Source of the DNA: Tractidigestivibacter scatoligenes
GTDB lineage: Bacteria; Actinomycetota; Coriobacteriia; Coriobacteriales; Atopobiaceae
Assembly (NCBI RefSeq): GCF_001494635.1
Contig: NZ_LOJF01000009.1
Span: 186,001 to 250,000, forward strand
DNA length: 64,000 nt
Direction: 5' to 3'
Numbering within the stretch: the stretch's first letter is position 1; each line of letters starts with the position of its first letter. The notes beneath the pieces are model-generated. The model saw only the letters and a list, made by a program, of their open reading frames with translations. It was not told the origin of the DNA and ran no database searches. Made by a program: the position numbers and the translations under genes. This document shows, one piece after another, positions 1,424-8,336 of the stretch.

Positions 1424-1828
1424 CTACTCGTTGCCAGCCGGATGCTCGGAGTAGGTAGCGCCAATGGCGTGGCTCGGCTCCTCACCGGTGAGCGTGGAGA
1501 TGACCGTGACGGCAGGCCCAAGCAGGTCGATGGAGGGAATGCCCCTCCTGTCAAGCTCGCGGCGAATCTCGCGGCGAAGCTGGCCGTTGGCAAACGTGTG
1601 GAAAACGGCGCTCGGCCTGTCCGGGTCAAAGTTCTTGTCGAAGTAGTCTCGGACCTGCTCGACGCTCTCGACACCAGACACGCGAATGATCTCGACTGAT
1701 CCGTCACCGAACTGTGCGGCGGCAGCCTCCACAACGGCCTTGGCAGTCTCGCCGCGTGCGTCGGAGAGCACGTAGATGGCAGGGACAACATGGCCGAAGA
1801 CGTCGTCGTCCAGATCAAGTTTCCTCAT
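1424..1828 (-). CDS. Half-length PSRP (DUF299)-like protein, putative PPDK regulator, 134 aa
   Basis: The protein matches the N-terminal half of the PPDK/PEP-synthase regulatory proteins, bifunctional kinase/pyrophosphorylases that act on PPDK. Near residues 16-30 it has YVLSDARGETAKAVVEAA (family: SD-S/G-TGETA), and near 95-110 it has RGIPSIDLLGPAV (family: VDLLGPL). Family members are about 270 residues; this one stops at 134, before the segment that carries the P-loop GVSRTSKTP. The stop is followed within 30 nt by a terminator and then ppdK, so the second half is not hidden in another frame. The ATG at 1828 is chosen because GGAGG precedes it; an in-frame ATG 24 nt upstream lacks this. 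Position next to ppdK supports a link to PPDK, but without the P-loop it should not be an active kinase. Confidence 0.72.
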   Translation of the reverse strand: MRKLDLDDDVFGHVVPAIYVLSDARGETAKAVVEAAAAQFGDGSVEIIRVSGVESVEQVRDYFDKNFDPDRPSAVFHTFANGQLRREIRRELDRRGIPSIDLLGPAVTVISTLTGEEPSHAIGATYSEHPAGNE

Positions 1829-1891: not shown

Positions 1892-3988
1892 CTACTTTCG
1901 CTTCGAAAGTACACCAATATCGGCGACGTCACCAAAGACGCCAGCGAAACGGTTGAGAAGTCGCAACCTATTGTCCCTCACCGAGGCGTCTGGATCCATG
2001 ACGAGAACATCGGTGAAGAAGCGGTCGATTGGCCCACGAAGGCCAGCGAGAGCCTCGCAAGCGGCATCAAAGTCACCGGAGGCAAGAGCAGCGGAGACGG
2101 CCTTCTCGCCTTCCTGGCAAGCAGCGAGAAGCGCCTTCTCCGCGTCTCCCAGCATGCTTGCGTCGACGTCCGTACCAAGCGAGGCGTCGGCAAGGTGAGC
2201 GGCGCGCGCGTAGGCGGTCGCAAGGTCCTCGAAAAGCTCAGGGCTCTCGGAGCGAGCGCGGTCAAGGGCGGAAGCACGGCGGACGAACTCATCGGGGTCG
2301 ATGACGCCCACGGAGCCCACGGCCTCGATGGCGTCGGGAGCGATTCCCTCGTCCTTGGCGATGGCCGCAAGGCGACCCTGGAAGAAGGAGGCAACCGAGG
2401 AGGCAACGCCCTTGGCATCAAACTCGATGCCCTGCTCGGCGTAGGACGCAAGAGCAAGGTCAATGAGCGGGCGCAGATGGACGGAGGGAAGCGTACGCAG
2501 CATGGCGATCACACCGATTGCCGCACGGCGAACGGCAAACGGGTCGGAGGAGCCAGTGGGCGGCTCGTCAATGGCGAAGATGCCACACACAGTGTCGAGC
2601 TTGTCGGCAATGGCCACGCACTTGCCAACCAATCCGGACGGAAGCTCGTCGCCGGCAAAGCGCGGACGGTAGTGCTCGCGGATGGCGTCGCAGACCTCTT
2701 GGGGCTCGCCCGCCGCCTTGGCGTAGTAGCCGCCCATGACGCCCTGCTGGTTGGTGAATTCGACCACGGCCTGGCTCACGAGGTCTGCCTTCGCAAGGTG
2801 AGCCGCACGCCTGGCAAGTTCGCACGTGCGCTCGTCTGCACCGGCCGCCTTGGCCACGGCCTCGGCGAGCGCCTCCATGCGCGTGACCTTCTGACGCACA
2901 GTGCCAAGCTTCTCCTGGAAGACGACGGTACCCAGACGCTCAACGAACTCGTCCATGGGAACCTTGAGGTCCTCCTCGTAGAAGAACTTAGCGTCGTCGA
3001 GACGGGCGCGCACGACGCGCTCGTTGCCGTCGACCACGGTTGCAGAGACCTTTGGGTCCGCGTTTGAGACAACGACGAACTCACGTGTAAGGTTGCCCTC
3101 GGCGTCGTAGACGGGGAAATAGCGCTGGTTGGAGAGCATGGACTCGCAGATGATCTCATGCGGGACCTTGAGGAACTCCTCGTCGAAGGTGCCGACCAGG
3201 ACCGTGGGCCACTCGCAGAGGTTCACGACCTCGTCGAGGGTGCGCTTGGGTGTGTCAACGCGGCAGCCGGGGCGCTCTGCCTCGACCTTGCTCACACCAT
3301 CGAGAATGGCGGCGCGCCGCTCGTCCTCGAGCAGTACGCCGTTCTGGCGCAGCACGTCGGCATAGGCAGCGGGGCTCTCAACCTTGTGGTCGCCAGGGCC
3401 AAGCACGCGATGCCCGCGCGTGGTGCCAGCACTCTTGACGTCGGCATATCTCACGGGCACAACGTCAGAGCCGAGAAGAGCGCAAATCCAGCGGATGGGG
3501 CGCACGAAGGTCTGGTGCTCCGAGCCCCAGCGCTGGCTCCTGTAGTTGGGCCACTCGATGGAGCCGATTACCTGCTCGGAAAGAGCCGAGAGGATTGGCG
3601 TTGCTGGACGAGCGTCAACGTGCTTCTCGGCAAAGACATATTCGCGGCCGTCCGAGTCCACGCGGCGCGCAAGCTGGGAGGCATCGACGCCAAACTTGCG
3701 GGCAAAGCCCTGGGCCGCCTTGGTGGGGGCGCCGTTGGCGTCAAAGGCGATGCTGGCCGCGGGCCCGCGCTTTACCTCGTTGAGCTCCTCGGTAGCAAGT
3801 GCCACGTCATGGACGTAGGCAACGAGCCTCCTCGGAGTCTGGTGGGTCTCAACCTTGCCGTGCGCAAGGCCGGCCTCGTCCAGCCCCTTGCGCACCAGCT
3901 CGCCAAGCTGAACCACGGCGTGGTTGAGCGGGGCAGACGGCATCTCCTCGCAGCCAATCTCAAGCAGGAAGTCCCTCGTCTCGGCCAT
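1892..3988 (-). CDS. glyS: Glycyl-tRNA synthetase beta subunit
   Basis: This is the 698-residue beta chain of the bacterial alpha2-beta2 glycyl-tRNA synthetase, needed for tRNA-Gly recognition. The N-terminus MAETRDFLLEIGCEEMP is the family signature. Further family blocks are VKRGPAASIAFDANGAPTKA near residue 75, ALLGSDVVPVRYADV near 170 and the HD-like stretch RRAAHLAKADLVSQAVVEF near 390. The length is normal. Its ATG directly abuts the TAG stop of glyQ (3989-3991), so the two chains are translationally coupled and probably made in equal amounts. Confidence 0.97.
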   Translation of the reverse strand: MAETRDFLLEIGCEEMPSAPLNHAVVQLGELVRKGLDEAGLAHGKVETHQTPRRLVAYVHDVALATEELNEVKRGPAASIAFDANGAPTKAAQGFARKFGVDASQLARRVDSDGREYVFAEKHVDARPATPILSALSEQVIGSIEWPNYRSQRWGSEHQTFVRPIRWICALLGSDVVPVRYADVKSAGTTRGHRVLGPGDHKVESPAAYADVLRQNGVLLEDERRAAILDGVSKVEAERPGCRVDTPKRTLDEVVNLCEWPTVLVGTFDEEFLKVPHEIICESMLSNQRYFPVYDAEGNLTREFVVVSNADPKVSATVVDGNERVVRARLDDAKFFYEEDLKVPMDEFVERLGTVVFQEKLGTVRQKVTRMEALAEAVAKAAGADERTCELARRAAHLAKADLVSQAVVEFTNQQGVMGGYYAKAAGEPQEVCDAIREHYRPRFAGDELPSGLVGKCVAIADKLDTVCGIFAIDEPPTGSSDPFAVRRAAIGVIAMLRTLPSVHLRPLIDLALASYAEQGIEFDAKGVASSVASFFQGRLAAIAKDEGIAPDAIEAVGSVGVIDPDEFVRRASALDRARSESPELFEDLATAYARAAHLADASLGTDVDASMLGDAEKALLAACQEGEKAVSAALASGDFDAACEALAGLRGPIDRFFTDVLVMDPDASVRDNRLRLLNRFAGVFGDVADIGVLSKRK

Positions 3989-4900
3989 CTAGGCCACCTC
4001 CCCCTTCGTGGTTGCAGCATCCTTCTTGCCAGCCACCTCAGCGAGGTAGGCCTCGCAGCAGTCCTTGGCAACGGTACGGACGCGCAGGATGTAGTTGGCA
4101 CGCTCCGTGGCGGAGATTGCTCCGCGGGAGTCGAGCAGGTTAAACGCGTGGCTGCACTTCATCACGCAGTCATAGGCAGGAAGCGGCAGGTGGGCATCGA
4201 GGCAGGAGTGGCACTCGGCCTCGTACTCGTCGAACTTCTCGCGCATGAGGTCGACGTTGGCAACCTCGAAGTTATAGGCAGAGAACTCGCGCTCGTTCTC
4301 GAGGAAGACGTCACCGTAGGTCATGGGGGTGCCGTCAGGCAGGTAGCTCCAGACGATGTCATATACCGAGTTCACGCCCTGCGCGTACATGGCAATGCGC
4401 TCGAGGCCGTAGGTGATCTCGACGGGCACCGGGTCGACCTCGATGCCACCAACCTGCTGGAAGTAGGTGAACTGCGTTACCTCCATGCCGTCCATCCACA
4501 CTTCCCAGCCAAGGCCCCAGGCGCCGAGCGTTGGGCTCTCCCAGTCGTCCTCGACAAAGCGGACGTCGTGCTCGGCGGGGTCAAGGCCAATGGCGGCAAG
4601 AGAGCCAAGGTAGAGGTCCTGGGAGTCCACAGGCGAGGGCTTGAGGAGCACCTGGAACTGGTAGTAGTGCTGCAGGCGGTTGGGGTTCTCGCCATAACGG
4701 CCGTCAGCCGGTCGACGGCACGGCTGCGGGTAGCAGGTGCGCCAGGCAGCGGGTCCAAGCGAGCGCAGGAGCGTAGCCGTGTGGAAGGTACCTGCGCCCA
4801 CCTCAGAGTCATACGGCTGCATCACGGTGCAGCCCTTGTCAGCCCAATAGTGCTCGAGGGCGAGGATCATGTCTTGGAACGTAAGCGGGCTTTCGCTCAT
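3989..4900 (-). CDS. glyQ: Glycyl-tRNA synthetase alpha subunit
   Basis: This 303-residue class II catalytic chain partners GlyS to charge tRNA-Gly. It starts [24 protein letters not shown] and contains the family block [21 protein letters not shown] near residues 30-50 and the [22 protein letters not shown] block near 65-85. The ATG at 4900 has GGAGGAAGG upstream; a longer in-frame opening to 4969 overlaps lepB and lacks homology. It lies 38 nt downstream of lepB and abuts glyS, so it probably belongs to the rpsP operon. No T-box consensus is visible upstream. Confidence 0.97.
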
Positions 4901-4938
4901 ATCCGTCCTTCCTCCAGGCAAAGACGCCGACGCGGGTG

Positions 4939-5499
4939 CTACAGGCCCTTTACGTCGGAAATCGGCCAATAGATGCAGAGTATCTTCGACGTCACCGAAC
5001 TCACCCTCACCGCGCCAAAGTAGCGCGAATCAAGCGAGTTGGTGCGGTTGTCCCCCATGACCCAGATGCAGCCATCGGGAACGGTGTAGGGGTAGGTTAT
5101 GCCGGCCGAACCAGCCTGGTCGGACAGCGAGTAGCTGGGCTTGCCCAAGGTATAGGAGGACTCGTCCAGCTGGACGCCGTCAACATACACATTTCCGTCT
5201 CGCAGGTCGACGGTCTGGCCGCCCGCAGCGATGACGCGCTTCACAAGGGTGGTGCCAGGCTCGCGTGGGCTGTCAAACGTCACGATGTCGCCAGCCTTGG
5301 GTGACTCCCAGTTAAGCGAAACCTTCTCGCCAAGGAGCAGATCGCCTTCCTGTATGGTCTCGAGCATGGATCCAGAGGGAACCTCATAGACCCCAACCAC
5401 AAAGGTGCGGAGGAGAAACGCCACGCCAAGCGCAACGAGGATGGTCACGATAACGTCGAGAAAACCGTTTCCCTTCTCCTTTGTCGTGCTTTTGGCCAC
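4939..5499 (-). CDS. lepB: Signal peptidase I
   Basis: This 186-residue membrane peptidase removes signal peptides from exported proteins. It has a short cytoplasmic N-terminus, one membrane segment (about residues 13-33), the catalytic serine in VPSGSML (Ser44), the catalytic lysine in [11 protein letters not shown] (Lys87) and the box [17 protein letters not shown]. The start is set as GTG at 5499: GGAGG lies 8 nt upstream and the codon sits one base after the trmD stop. An ATG at 5550 would overlap trmD by 50 nt. In many actinobacteria rplS lies between trmD and lepB; here it is absent. Confidence 0.94.
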
Positions 5500-5500
5500 G

Positions 5501-6280
5501 CTACTCGCCTCCTGTTGCAGAATCGTCGTTGCCATCCGCCCCTGTGACATGGTCCTGCTCCATTATCTGCCGCGCGAGCTCCCATTCGTCCGGGGAGAGA
5601 CCGGCTCCAGCAAGCAGATCCGGACGCCAGCGTGCCGTGCGCTCGATGGCGCTCTTCCTTCGCCATGCGTCCACGGCACCGTGGTCGCCGGAGAGAAGGA
5701 CCTCAGGCACGCACAGCCCATCATAGTCTGCCGGCCTCGTGTACTGAGCGTACTCGAGAAGTCCATCCGAGAAGGACTCGTCGAGGGCGCTCATCTCGTC
5801 CCCAAGCGCCCCAGGCAGAAGCCTCACAACGGCATCGATAACGACGAGGGCTGGAAGCTCCCCGCCGGTAAGCACATAGTCGCCAAGCGAGAGCACATCG
5901 TCCGCAAGGCGATAGGCGCGCTCATCCATACCCTCGTACCGACCACAGACAAAGAGCAGGCGCTCCTCGTGGGAGAGGCGCTCGGCCACCTCCTCGTCAA
6001 AGCGGCGTCCGCAGGGGGAGAAGAACACTACATGGGGAACGTGCTCTCCGCGCGACGAGATGTCGCGAACCGCCTCGAAGATGGGTGCGGGCTTCATGAG
6101 CATGCCCTGACCCCCGCCAAACGGCGCATCGTCAACCGTACGATGCCGGTCATGGGTCCAGTCGCGCAGGTCATATGCCTCGAACGAAAAGATGCCCTTG
6201 GCCTGTGCGCGCCCCATGATAGAAGCGTCAAGATAGGGTGCAAAGACGCCGGGAAAGACAGAGAGGGTCTCGATGATCAC
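5501..6280 (-). CDS. trmD: tRNA (guanine-N1)-methyltransferase
   Basis: TrmD makes m1G37 in tRNAs reading CNN codons and so prevents +1 frameshifting. The 259-residue protein begins MIIETLSVFPGVFAPYLDAS and carries the trefoil-knot SAM site: FFSPCGRRFDEEVAERLS near residue 90, LLFVCGRYEGMDERA near 110 and LGDYVLTGGELPALVVIDAV near 135. The start is a GTG that overlaps the rimM stop as GTGA, so it is translationally coupled to rimM. Confidence 0.97.
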   Translation of the reverse strand: MIIETLSVFPGVFAPYLDASIMGRAQAKGIFSFEAYDLRDWTHDRHRTVDDAPFGGGQGMLMKPAPIFEAVRDISSRGEHVPHVVFFSPCGRRFDEEVAERLSHEERLLFVCGRYEGMDERAYRLADDVLSLGDYVLTGGELPALVVIDAVVRLLPGALGDEMSALDESFSDGLLEYAQYTRPADYDGLCVPEVLLSGDHGAVDAWRRKSAIERTARWRPDLLAGAGLSPDEWELARQIMEQDHVTGADGNDDSATGGE

Positions 6281-6801
6281 TGGACGTCACCGCCATCGAC
6301 AAGGCCGGAAGGCACACAGACCCGAATGGCGCCTGTATCCGGAACCTCCAGGACAACGTCTTCCACGACGGGCACAAGCACCTCGCCAAACGGCCCCTCG
6401 ATAACCCAGACATCATTGGCGGGTCCCACCATGACCTCCTCGATGGTGCCGAGAAAGCCAAGGCACTCGTCGGTGACCTCGCGGCCAAAGAGCGCCTCTG
6501 CATCATGAAGCGCGACGTCATCCGGCAAATCTTTCTCGCGTGCGAGGAAGTAGCGACCGCGAAGGCCGTCAGCCTCGTTGATGCCTGTCACGCCCGAAAG
6601 CGAGACAAGCTGCCCACGTGCCCCTTCGGAGACGTGCGTCACGACGTAGGACCTGGGCCCCTTAAGACGAGGAGGCACCACAAAGACCTCGAGGCCCTCG
6701 CGAACAAGAGGGGGAAGGCCGTGAACGGCAACCGTCACGACCTCCCCCGTTCTTCCGTGTGACTTCTCGACACGGGCTATGACTCTGTAGCGATCCCGCA
6801 A
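6277..6801 (-). CDS. rimM: 16S rRNA processing protein RimM
   Basis: RimM binds ribosomal protein S19 and helps mature the 3' domain of 16S rRNA. The 174 residues match the family: ARVEKSHGRTGEVVTVAV near the N-terminus (family: G-I-x-x-x-H-G-x-x-G-E), GINEADGLRGRYFLA near 75-90 (end of the RimM domain) and a C-terminal PRC-barrel half with VEDVVLEVPDTGAIRVCVP. The start appears to be TTG at 6801, seven nt after the khpA stop; no ATG or GTG lies nearby in frame. The gene overlaps trmD by 4 nt. Confidence 0.93.
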   Translation of the reverse strand: MRDRYRVIARVEKSHGRTGEVVTVAVHGLPPLVREGLEVFVVPPRLKGPRSYVVTHVSEGARGQLVSLSGVTGINEADGLRGRYFLAREKDLPDDVALHDAEALFGREVTDECLGFLGTIEEVMVGPANDVWVIEGPFGEVLVPVVEDVVLEVPDTGAIRVCVPSGLVDGGDVQ

Positions 6802-6807
6802 GGTTGC

Positions 6808-7095
6808 CTAGCCTACGACCTCGACCTCGACAGAGGTCCCCACGCGCTGCCCAAGGGCGCGCGCGAGAGTGCGAATGGCCTTAATGGTGCGGCCCTTACG
6901 GCCAATCACGCGGCCGGCATCGGCCTCGGCGCAGGTGACCTCAATGAGCGAGCCCTCGTCGCTATCGGTAACGTCAAGCGATACGGCACCCTCATCGTCG
7001 ACAAGACCACAGACGATGTACTCGACAAGGTCTGCCACCTTGTCGGAGGGCATCTCCTGCTCCTCGTCGACCTCGTCGTTAATGGTGTCTTCCAT
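6808..7095 (-). CDS. khpA: KH-domain RNA-binding protein KhpA
   Basis: This small 95-residue protein has a type II KH domain with the RNA-binding GxxG loop in GRVIGRKGRTIKAIRTLARA (about residues 62-81). KhpA proteins bind RNA, often with the Jag/KhpB partner, and influence cell division and elongation. An acidic N-terminus (EDTINDEVDEEQE) of about 15 residues precedes the domain. Its place between rpsP and rimM is the usual one in Gram-positive bacteria. ATG at 7095. Confidence 0.94.
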   Translation of the reverse strand: MEDTINDEVDEEQEMPSDKVADLVEYIVCGLVDDEGAVSLDVTDSDEGSLIEVTCAEADAGRVIGRKGRTIKAIRTLARALGQRVGTSVEVEVVG

Positions 7096-7106
7096 GAAAG
7101 GCGCCC

Positions 7107-7442
7107 CTACTCGGCAGCGGCCTCAGCAGCCTCCTCGGCCGCCTTGGCAGCCTTGGCAGCGGCCTTCTTGGAGATCTTAGCCTTCTTCTCAACGACGGGC
7201 TGACCATTGCGGACAACGTCGATGAGGTGAGAGACGGTGTTGGTGGGCTGGGCGCCCTTGGAAATCCAGGTGTCAACCTTCTCGAGGTCAATCTCGATGG
7301 TCTTGGGGTTGGTCAGGGGGTTGTAGCGGCCCACCTGCTCGATGTAACGGCCATCGCGAGGCATGCGGCTGTCGGCGACGACGATGCGATAGTACGGACG
7401 CTTCTTGGCACCGTGACGGGCCAGACGAATCTTAACTGCCAA
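7107..7442 (-). CDS. rpsP: 30S ribosomal protein S16
   Basis: S16 is a primary assembly protein of the 30S subunit. The 111-residue protein reads [19 protein letters not shown], then a conserved core with [13 protein letters not shown], and ends in an Ala/Lys/Glu-rich tail ([18 protein letters not shown]) typical of actinobacterial S16. The start is TTG at 7442, preceded by GGAGGAG with a 6-nt spacer; the upstream in-frame codons are not conserved. It is the first gene of the probable rpsP-khpA-rimM-trmD-lepB-glyQ-glyS operon. Confidence 0.95.
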
Positions 7443-7516
7443 TGAAAACTCCTCCATACGAGCGGTGCCCTGGTGTAGTGTCATGGCTGCACCGCATAGC
7501 CACATAGCAATTAGAC

Positions 7517-7544
7517 ATTCTACGCCCACCCAGCATGTGCGCAA
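7517..7544 (-). promoter_or_regulatory. rpsP: Candidate sigma-70 promoter of the rpsP operon
   Basis: On the minus strand TTGCGC (7539-7544) and TAGAAT (7517-7522) are spaced 16 bp apart, about 75 nt upstream of the rpsP TTG. The -10 matches consensus at 5 of 6 positions. The same -35 word occurs upstream of the ferredoxin gene. Confidence 0.5.
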
Positions 7545-7592
7545 GTTGCAGATTTTGTGAACCATGCGCTTACGGGCTGCATCGAGTTTGCG

Positions 7593-7609
7593 TTTAAGTG
7601 GGATTTAAG
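7593..7609 (+). promoter_or_regulatory. Direct repeat TTTAAG-N5-TTTAAG, candidate response-regulator site
   Basis: TTTAAG occurs at 7593-7598 and again at 7604-7609, exactly 11 bp apart, 50 nt upstream of the response-regulator ATG. OmpR/PhoB-type regulators bind direct repeats with an 11-bp period, so this may be an autoregulatory site. No binding evidence exists beyond spacing and position. Confidence 0.35.
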
Positions 7610-7658
7610 ACTCACAACGTACGATTATGCAGGCAAGACGGAAATGAAGGAGGAACCC

Positions 7659-8336
7659 ATGAACGTTCTCGTTGTCGAAGACGAGCGAAACCTCGCCGAC
7701 GCCATTGTCCGCATCCTCTCTGACGCTGGTTACAACGCCGAGGCCGTCTATGACGGCACGTCTGGTCTCACGAGTGCGAAAAGCGGTCTCTACGATGCCG
7801 TCATCCTTGACGTGATGCTGCCCGGCATGAATGGCTATGACGTCGTGCACGAGATGCGTCGTGCCGACATCTCGACGCCCGTGCTCATGCTCACGGCACT
7901 CAACTCCACGGAGGACAAGGTCGAGGGCCTTGACTCCGGTGCCGACGACTACATGACAAAGCCCTTCGACGCGCCGGAGCTTCTTGCTCGCCTGCGTGCC
8001 GTCACCCGTCGCAAGGGCGAGGTGATGATCGACGAGATCAAGTTTGCGGACCTCACGCTTGACCTCACCACGCATGACCTCTCCTGCGGAGACAAGAAGA
8101 TTCACCTCTCCGGCAAGGAGTTCGAGCTCATGCGAATGCTCATGAGCGCCTCTTCTCGCGTCATCTCAAAGCAGGACCTCCTCACGAGGGTCTGGGGTGC
8201 CGACGCAGAGGCCTCCGAGAACTCGGTGGAAGCGTACATCTCGTTCCTGCGCAAGAAGCTCGCACATGTTGGGTCCAAGGTACAAATCACCACGCTCAGG
8301 ATGCTCGGCTATAGGCTGGAGCTCTTCGAGGACTAG
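7659..8336 (+). CDS. OmpR/PhoB-family DNA-binding response regulator
   Basis: This 225-residue two-component regulator has a receiver domain (about 1-120) with acidic pocket Asp8/Glu9, phospho-acceptor Asp51 (AVILDVMLPGMNG), Thr79 and Lys101 (MTKPFD). A C-terminal winged-helix DNA-binding domain (about 130-223) includes LSGKEFELMRMLM and the end LRMLGYRLE. The ATG at 7659 has AAGGAGG 5 nt upstream. The histidine kinase starts 39 nt downstream, so the two form a cognate pair. The signal is unknown. Confidence 0.95.
   Translation: MNVLVVEDERNLADAIVRILSDAGYNAEAVYDGTSGLTSAKSGLYDAVILDVMLPGMNGYDVVHEMRRADISTPVLMLTALNSTEDKVEGLDSGADDYMTKPFDAPELLARLRAVTRRKGEVMIDEIKFADLTLDLTTHDLSCGDKKIHLSGKEFELMRMLMSASSRVISKQDLLTRVWGADAEASENSVEAYISFLRKKLAHVGSKVQITTLRMLGYRLELFED

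Follow-up and report, generated by a model that had tools for sequence, protein, structure and literature searches.

The N-terminal domain of a bifunctional PPDK regulator as a stand-alone protein, without its catalytic domain, encoded beside ppdK in Atopobiaceae

The bifunctional regulators of pyruvate, phosphate dikinase (PPDK), known as PSRP/PDRP (DUF299, PF03618) and including maize PDRP1, E. coli PpsR and Listeria PDRP, are proteins of about 270–300 residues. In maize PDRP the N-terminal and C-terminal domains (NTD and CTD) have the same fold and a P-loop each, but there is a single active site, in the CTD; the NTD is not an active site, and an allosteric or regulatory role has been proposed for it (PMC9138534). 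A comparison of NTD with CTD profiles gave no sequence-homology signal, so the shared fold is taken here from the published structure only. Work by Jiang in 2016 is said to have identified Lys-274, Asp-277 and Lys-299 as the catalytic residues of the maize protein, and the AMP in the 5d0n structure is reportedly bound at the N-terminal P-loop. No description of NTD-only forms of PSRP/PDRP was found in the literature searched.

The window, the whole stretch of 64,000 nucleotides from Tractidigestivibacter scatoligenes that was analysed, contains a half-length PPDK regulator gene adjoining ppdK (Table 1). The 134-residue product passed the threshold for PF03618 (E = 1.7e-18, 67.7 bits against a cut-off of 23.5), although the Pfam match covered only profile positions 1–107 of 256; NCBIfam PRK05339 aligned only at 7–114 of 270, far from the full-length cut-off (63.5 vs 225 bits), and the best sequence match in the PDB was to maize PDRP (5d0n), N-terminal part only. 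Homology to PSRP/PDRP thus spans the whole NTD, whereas the entire CTD is lacking: the sequence stops before the points at which full-length relatives have their catalytic P-loop (GVSRTSKTP) and HDDG motif. Alignment was consistent with a position of Lys-274, Asp-277 and Lys-299 within the CTD segments IKQDDG and GVSRTGKT, and the known kinase and pyrophosphorylase residues are all missing from the half protein. It is clear that this is the NTD of a bifunctional PPDK regulator, now an independent protein, and an initial annotation made from the sequence alone, which described a half-length regulator beside ppdK that ends before GVSRTSKTP and may have lost catalysis, is supported on these points. 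The same annotation had remarked on a good ribosome binding site, which is GGGAGG, shortly 5′ of the ATG, and on a terminator leaving no space for the missing half. The latter also stands, as the terminator (RNA fold −22.6 kcal/mol, z = −5.0) follows the stop codon closely and the ppdK start codon lies only 223 nt from that stop.

Table 1. Features of the half-gene locus (positions in the window), with the examined loci of a second group of half-length proteins
Feature	Positions	Strand	Remarks
ppdK (pyruvate, phosphate dikinase, 918 aa)	1–1200	−	3′ end beyond window
Intrinsic terminator, half gene/ppdK interval	1371–1394	−	10-bp stem, 30 nt 3′ of half-gene stop
Half-length PPDK regulator gene	1424–1828	−	ATG start, 134 aa, PF03618 positions 1–107
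P-loop-like motif SDARGETA, residues 22–29	1742–1765	−	Counterpart of maize PDRP NTD SDGTGWTA
glyS	1892–3988	−	Upstream neighbour of half gene, 63 nt gap
glyQ	3989–4900	−	First gene of conserved glyQ-glyS-half-ppdK order; start codon not fixed
Group B loci			L072, L075, L076, L079, L081, L084, L087, L095, L104, L107, L109, L110, L115

A product half as long as characterised members might denote a pseudogene, arisen by local frameshift or deletion, or an error of assembly. The same half-length gene, and the half only, was however present in 8/8 genomes of the genus, with no full-length gene at the locus in these close relatives. Across the family, PF03618 was matched in 132/140 Atopobiaceae genomes, 15 carrying a full-length regulator, all in other genera, and about 117 the N-terminal half only (a count that includes two weak matches, G079 and G090). 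Named relatives were Olsenella and uncultured Atopobiaceae; among the genomes outside Atopobiaceae listed in searches of the order, class and phylum, the best matches were full-length. Moreover, dN/dS of the half gene between genus members was 0.03–0.06, similar to or below that of glyS and glyQ, indicating strong purifying selection (other half-only pairs gave 0.03–0.28). With one length kept in more than 100 independent genomes, and a ribosome binding site and terminator in place, a pseudogene is extremely improbable, and local frameshift, deletion or assembly error was rejected on the evidence of the relatives. That the half-length protein is functional is well supported.

Half and full-length genes occupy one slot. 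In the order glyQ-glyS-X-ppdK, X is either the half gene or, in sister genera, a full-length gene, from which it follows that the half gene is orthologous to the full-length regulator gene and has lost the part for the C-terminal domain. In a tree built from GlyQ, GlyS and PPDK, one half-gene genus (g9) was nested among full-length genera (g11, g14 and g16) with 100/100 support, apart from the main half clade, implying at least two independent truncations. The tree shows four changes if the incomplete assemblies G012 and G016, which have full-length genes inside the half clade, are counted; these genes may represent retention, re-gain or binning error. Both truncations stop at the domain boundary, immediately after a conserved P....G.

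Certain full-length regulators had altered catalytic motifs: GLSGSAKTP in G066/G067 (L120, L145), GMHRTSKTP in G016 (L147) and HDEG in G014 (L146). The ppdK of G066 lies elsewhere in the genome, not beside the full-length regulator. Judged by their motifs, such proteins are possible intermediates, in which catalysis would have been fading before the domain was lost.

As the known active site of full-length proteins is in the CTD, catalysis by the half protein would need a partner, and one suggestion of the initial annotation was half of a split enzyme, that is, a kinase/pyrophosphorylase with its C-terminal half encoded elsewhere. In the T. scatoligenes genome (2.47 Mb, 99.9% complete), neither a full-length PSRP nor a separate C-terminal half was found: there was no other PF03618 match at E ≤ 10, no second N-terminal half, and no catalytic domain with the GVSRTSKTP P-loop and HDDG Asp, either in the 134-residue frame or elsewhere in the genome. 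A CTD profile, searched at E ≤ 0.01, matched all 15 full-length genomes and none of the 125 family genomes that lack a full-length gene. The split enzyme was therefore rejected at the level of recognisable sequence, and must be considered very improbable.

The half protein was modelled with AlphaFold2 from 13 sequences as a four-stranded alpha/beta domain, at moderate confidence (mean pLDDT 68, residues 50–100 about 83–91). In a Foldseek search of the PDB the top match, and the only one below 0.001, was AMP-bound maize PDRP (5d0n, E = 1.5e-4), on which the model superposed with a Z of 10.1 and 2.3 Å over 90 residues, at maize residues 136–231, within the N-terminal domain (27% identity). In maize PDRP1 this domain is joined to the catalytic one, whereas the half protein consists of nothing else. 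Both share the SDxxGxT loop, of which S22, D23, G26 and T28 were conserved in 42/42 main-locus half proteins; 13/13 proteins of a paralogous group (group B, below) have the D, G and T. The description 'without its P-loop half' therefore holds for the catalytic P-loop and Asp but not for the N-terminal loop, which is kept; a regulator working without ATP/ADP, another suggestion of the initial annotation, is not supported, this motif being invariant or nearly so in the half proteins. Such conservation, together with the presence of P-loops in both domains of maize PDRP, indicates that nucleotide binding may well persist. On this view the loss is of the known catalysis, and nucleotide sensing may have been retained.

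The presumptive target is encoded next door: the adjoining ppdK product keeps the regulatory Thr and catalytic His in GGKTSHAA (a motif outside the window). GGKTSHAA was identical in the PPDK of half- and full-regulator genomes, and was rejected as a discriminator between the two. Retention of the Thr could be read, together with the shared fold and paired P-loops of the maize domains (PMC9138534), as a sign that half proteins form homodimers in which the NTD P-loop is a cryptic catalytic site still phosphorylating PPDK. However, the Thr adjoins the catalytic His, so its retention is no proof of phosphorylation; SDxxGxT has no equivalent of either the P-loop Lys of the CTD or the catalytic Asp, and the active site is reported to lie outside the NTD (PMC9138534), making the homodimer improbable.

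In characterised PPDKs a Met stands before the regulatory Thr; PPDK of the Coriobacteriia examined (L061, L129–L137) reads ILTSHGGKTSHAA, with Lys preceding that Thr. At L108 (G133; about 4923–7746) ppdK was found in two overlapping frames, with an unreadable residue just past the TSH motif, probably through sequencing or assembly error.

Almost every family genome encodes PPDK (99/101 of the good ones). Pyruvate kinase was present in 101/101 good family genomes, so the step from PEP to pyruvate does not depend on PPDK alone, and the suggestion that PPDK must for this reason be always on was rejected. Among 30 chosen genomes of the order, ppdK occurred in 12/12 with PF03618 compared with 3/18 without (Fisher p = 1e-5, relatedness uncorrected), a co-occurrence that supports a continuing link of the family to PPDK. 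In G276, G290 and G293, of the same order, ppdK was present and no PF03618 regulator detectable, and G037 has ppdK and no PF03618 match, an absence that is uncertain because its ppdK begins 346 bases from the contig start.

The main rival to a regulator of PPDK is an NTD recruited to another partner in central carbon metabolism, with the proximity of ppdK being historical. In G024, G031 and G033 ppdK is located elsewhere and the half gene is still behind glyS, so adjacency is not obligatory, and the evolutionary rate of the half gene followed that of glyS (partial r 0.45) more than that of ppdK (0.25), in what is a weak test. A second kind of half-length, NTD-only PF03618 protein, group B, was found at 13 examined loci away from ppdK and formed a separate clade (support 100/97); one genome (G026) has both a full-length regulator and a group B copy. 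Of these loci, 4/13 adjoin a PFL-like glycyl-radical enzyme and a transaldolase/F6P aldolase, with a glycyl-radical activase called directly beside the half gene in three of the four, and other loci have a transaldolase-family gene or GntR/UTRA regulators as neighbours. Group B indicates that an NTD can be maintained alone and apart from PPDK, and its neighbourhoods suit a new job. Against such recruitment at the main locus, ppdK synteny was kept in nearly all main-group half loci examined, PF03618 and ppdK were mostly missing together in the order, and conserved NTD residues are common to half and full-length proteins. Recruitment to another partner is a serious possibility, though one we would expect to fail rather than hold.

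We favour a non-catalytic, stand-alone NTD that binds PPDK, senses adenylate and modulates the enzyme non-covalently, a mechanism to which we give an even chance of being correct. The catalytic CTD would have been lost and the NTD kept as a free protein, which would still bind PPDK, in keeping with the regulatory role proposed for the maize NTD. Adenylate would be sensed via the retained SDxxGxT loop, AMP being a candidate signal since it is a product/substrate of PPDK, and non-covalent modulation by the half protein would take the place of the reversible Thr phosphorylation switch. If so, the protein would resemble pseudokinase-type regulators, catalytically dead relatives kept as regulators; this is an analogy only, as pseudokinases have the protein-kinase fold and the half protein is not one of them. 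More tentatively, and somewhat unlikely as a whole, Atopobiaceae may have undergone a family-wide switch from covalent phospho-Thr control to non-covalent, adenylate-gated control of PPDK, reached at least twice by loss of the CTD, with additional NTD-only paralogs turned towards different enzymes of carbon metabolism, for example glycyl-radical enzymes.

An allosteric role of the NTD in DUF299 regulators has so far only been proposed. In Atopobiaceae the domain exists as a complete, conserved protein of its own, which makes it possible to test its function in isolation. Either PPDK in Atopobiaceae, which are common inhabitants of gut and rumen, is controlled without the usual phosphorylation, or the half protein has another job. 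A regulator homolog in these genomes does not imply control by phosphorylation, and if the half protein indeed regulates PPDK without it, the textbook account of how this PEP-pyruvate enzyme is controlled would not apply to Atopobiaceae.
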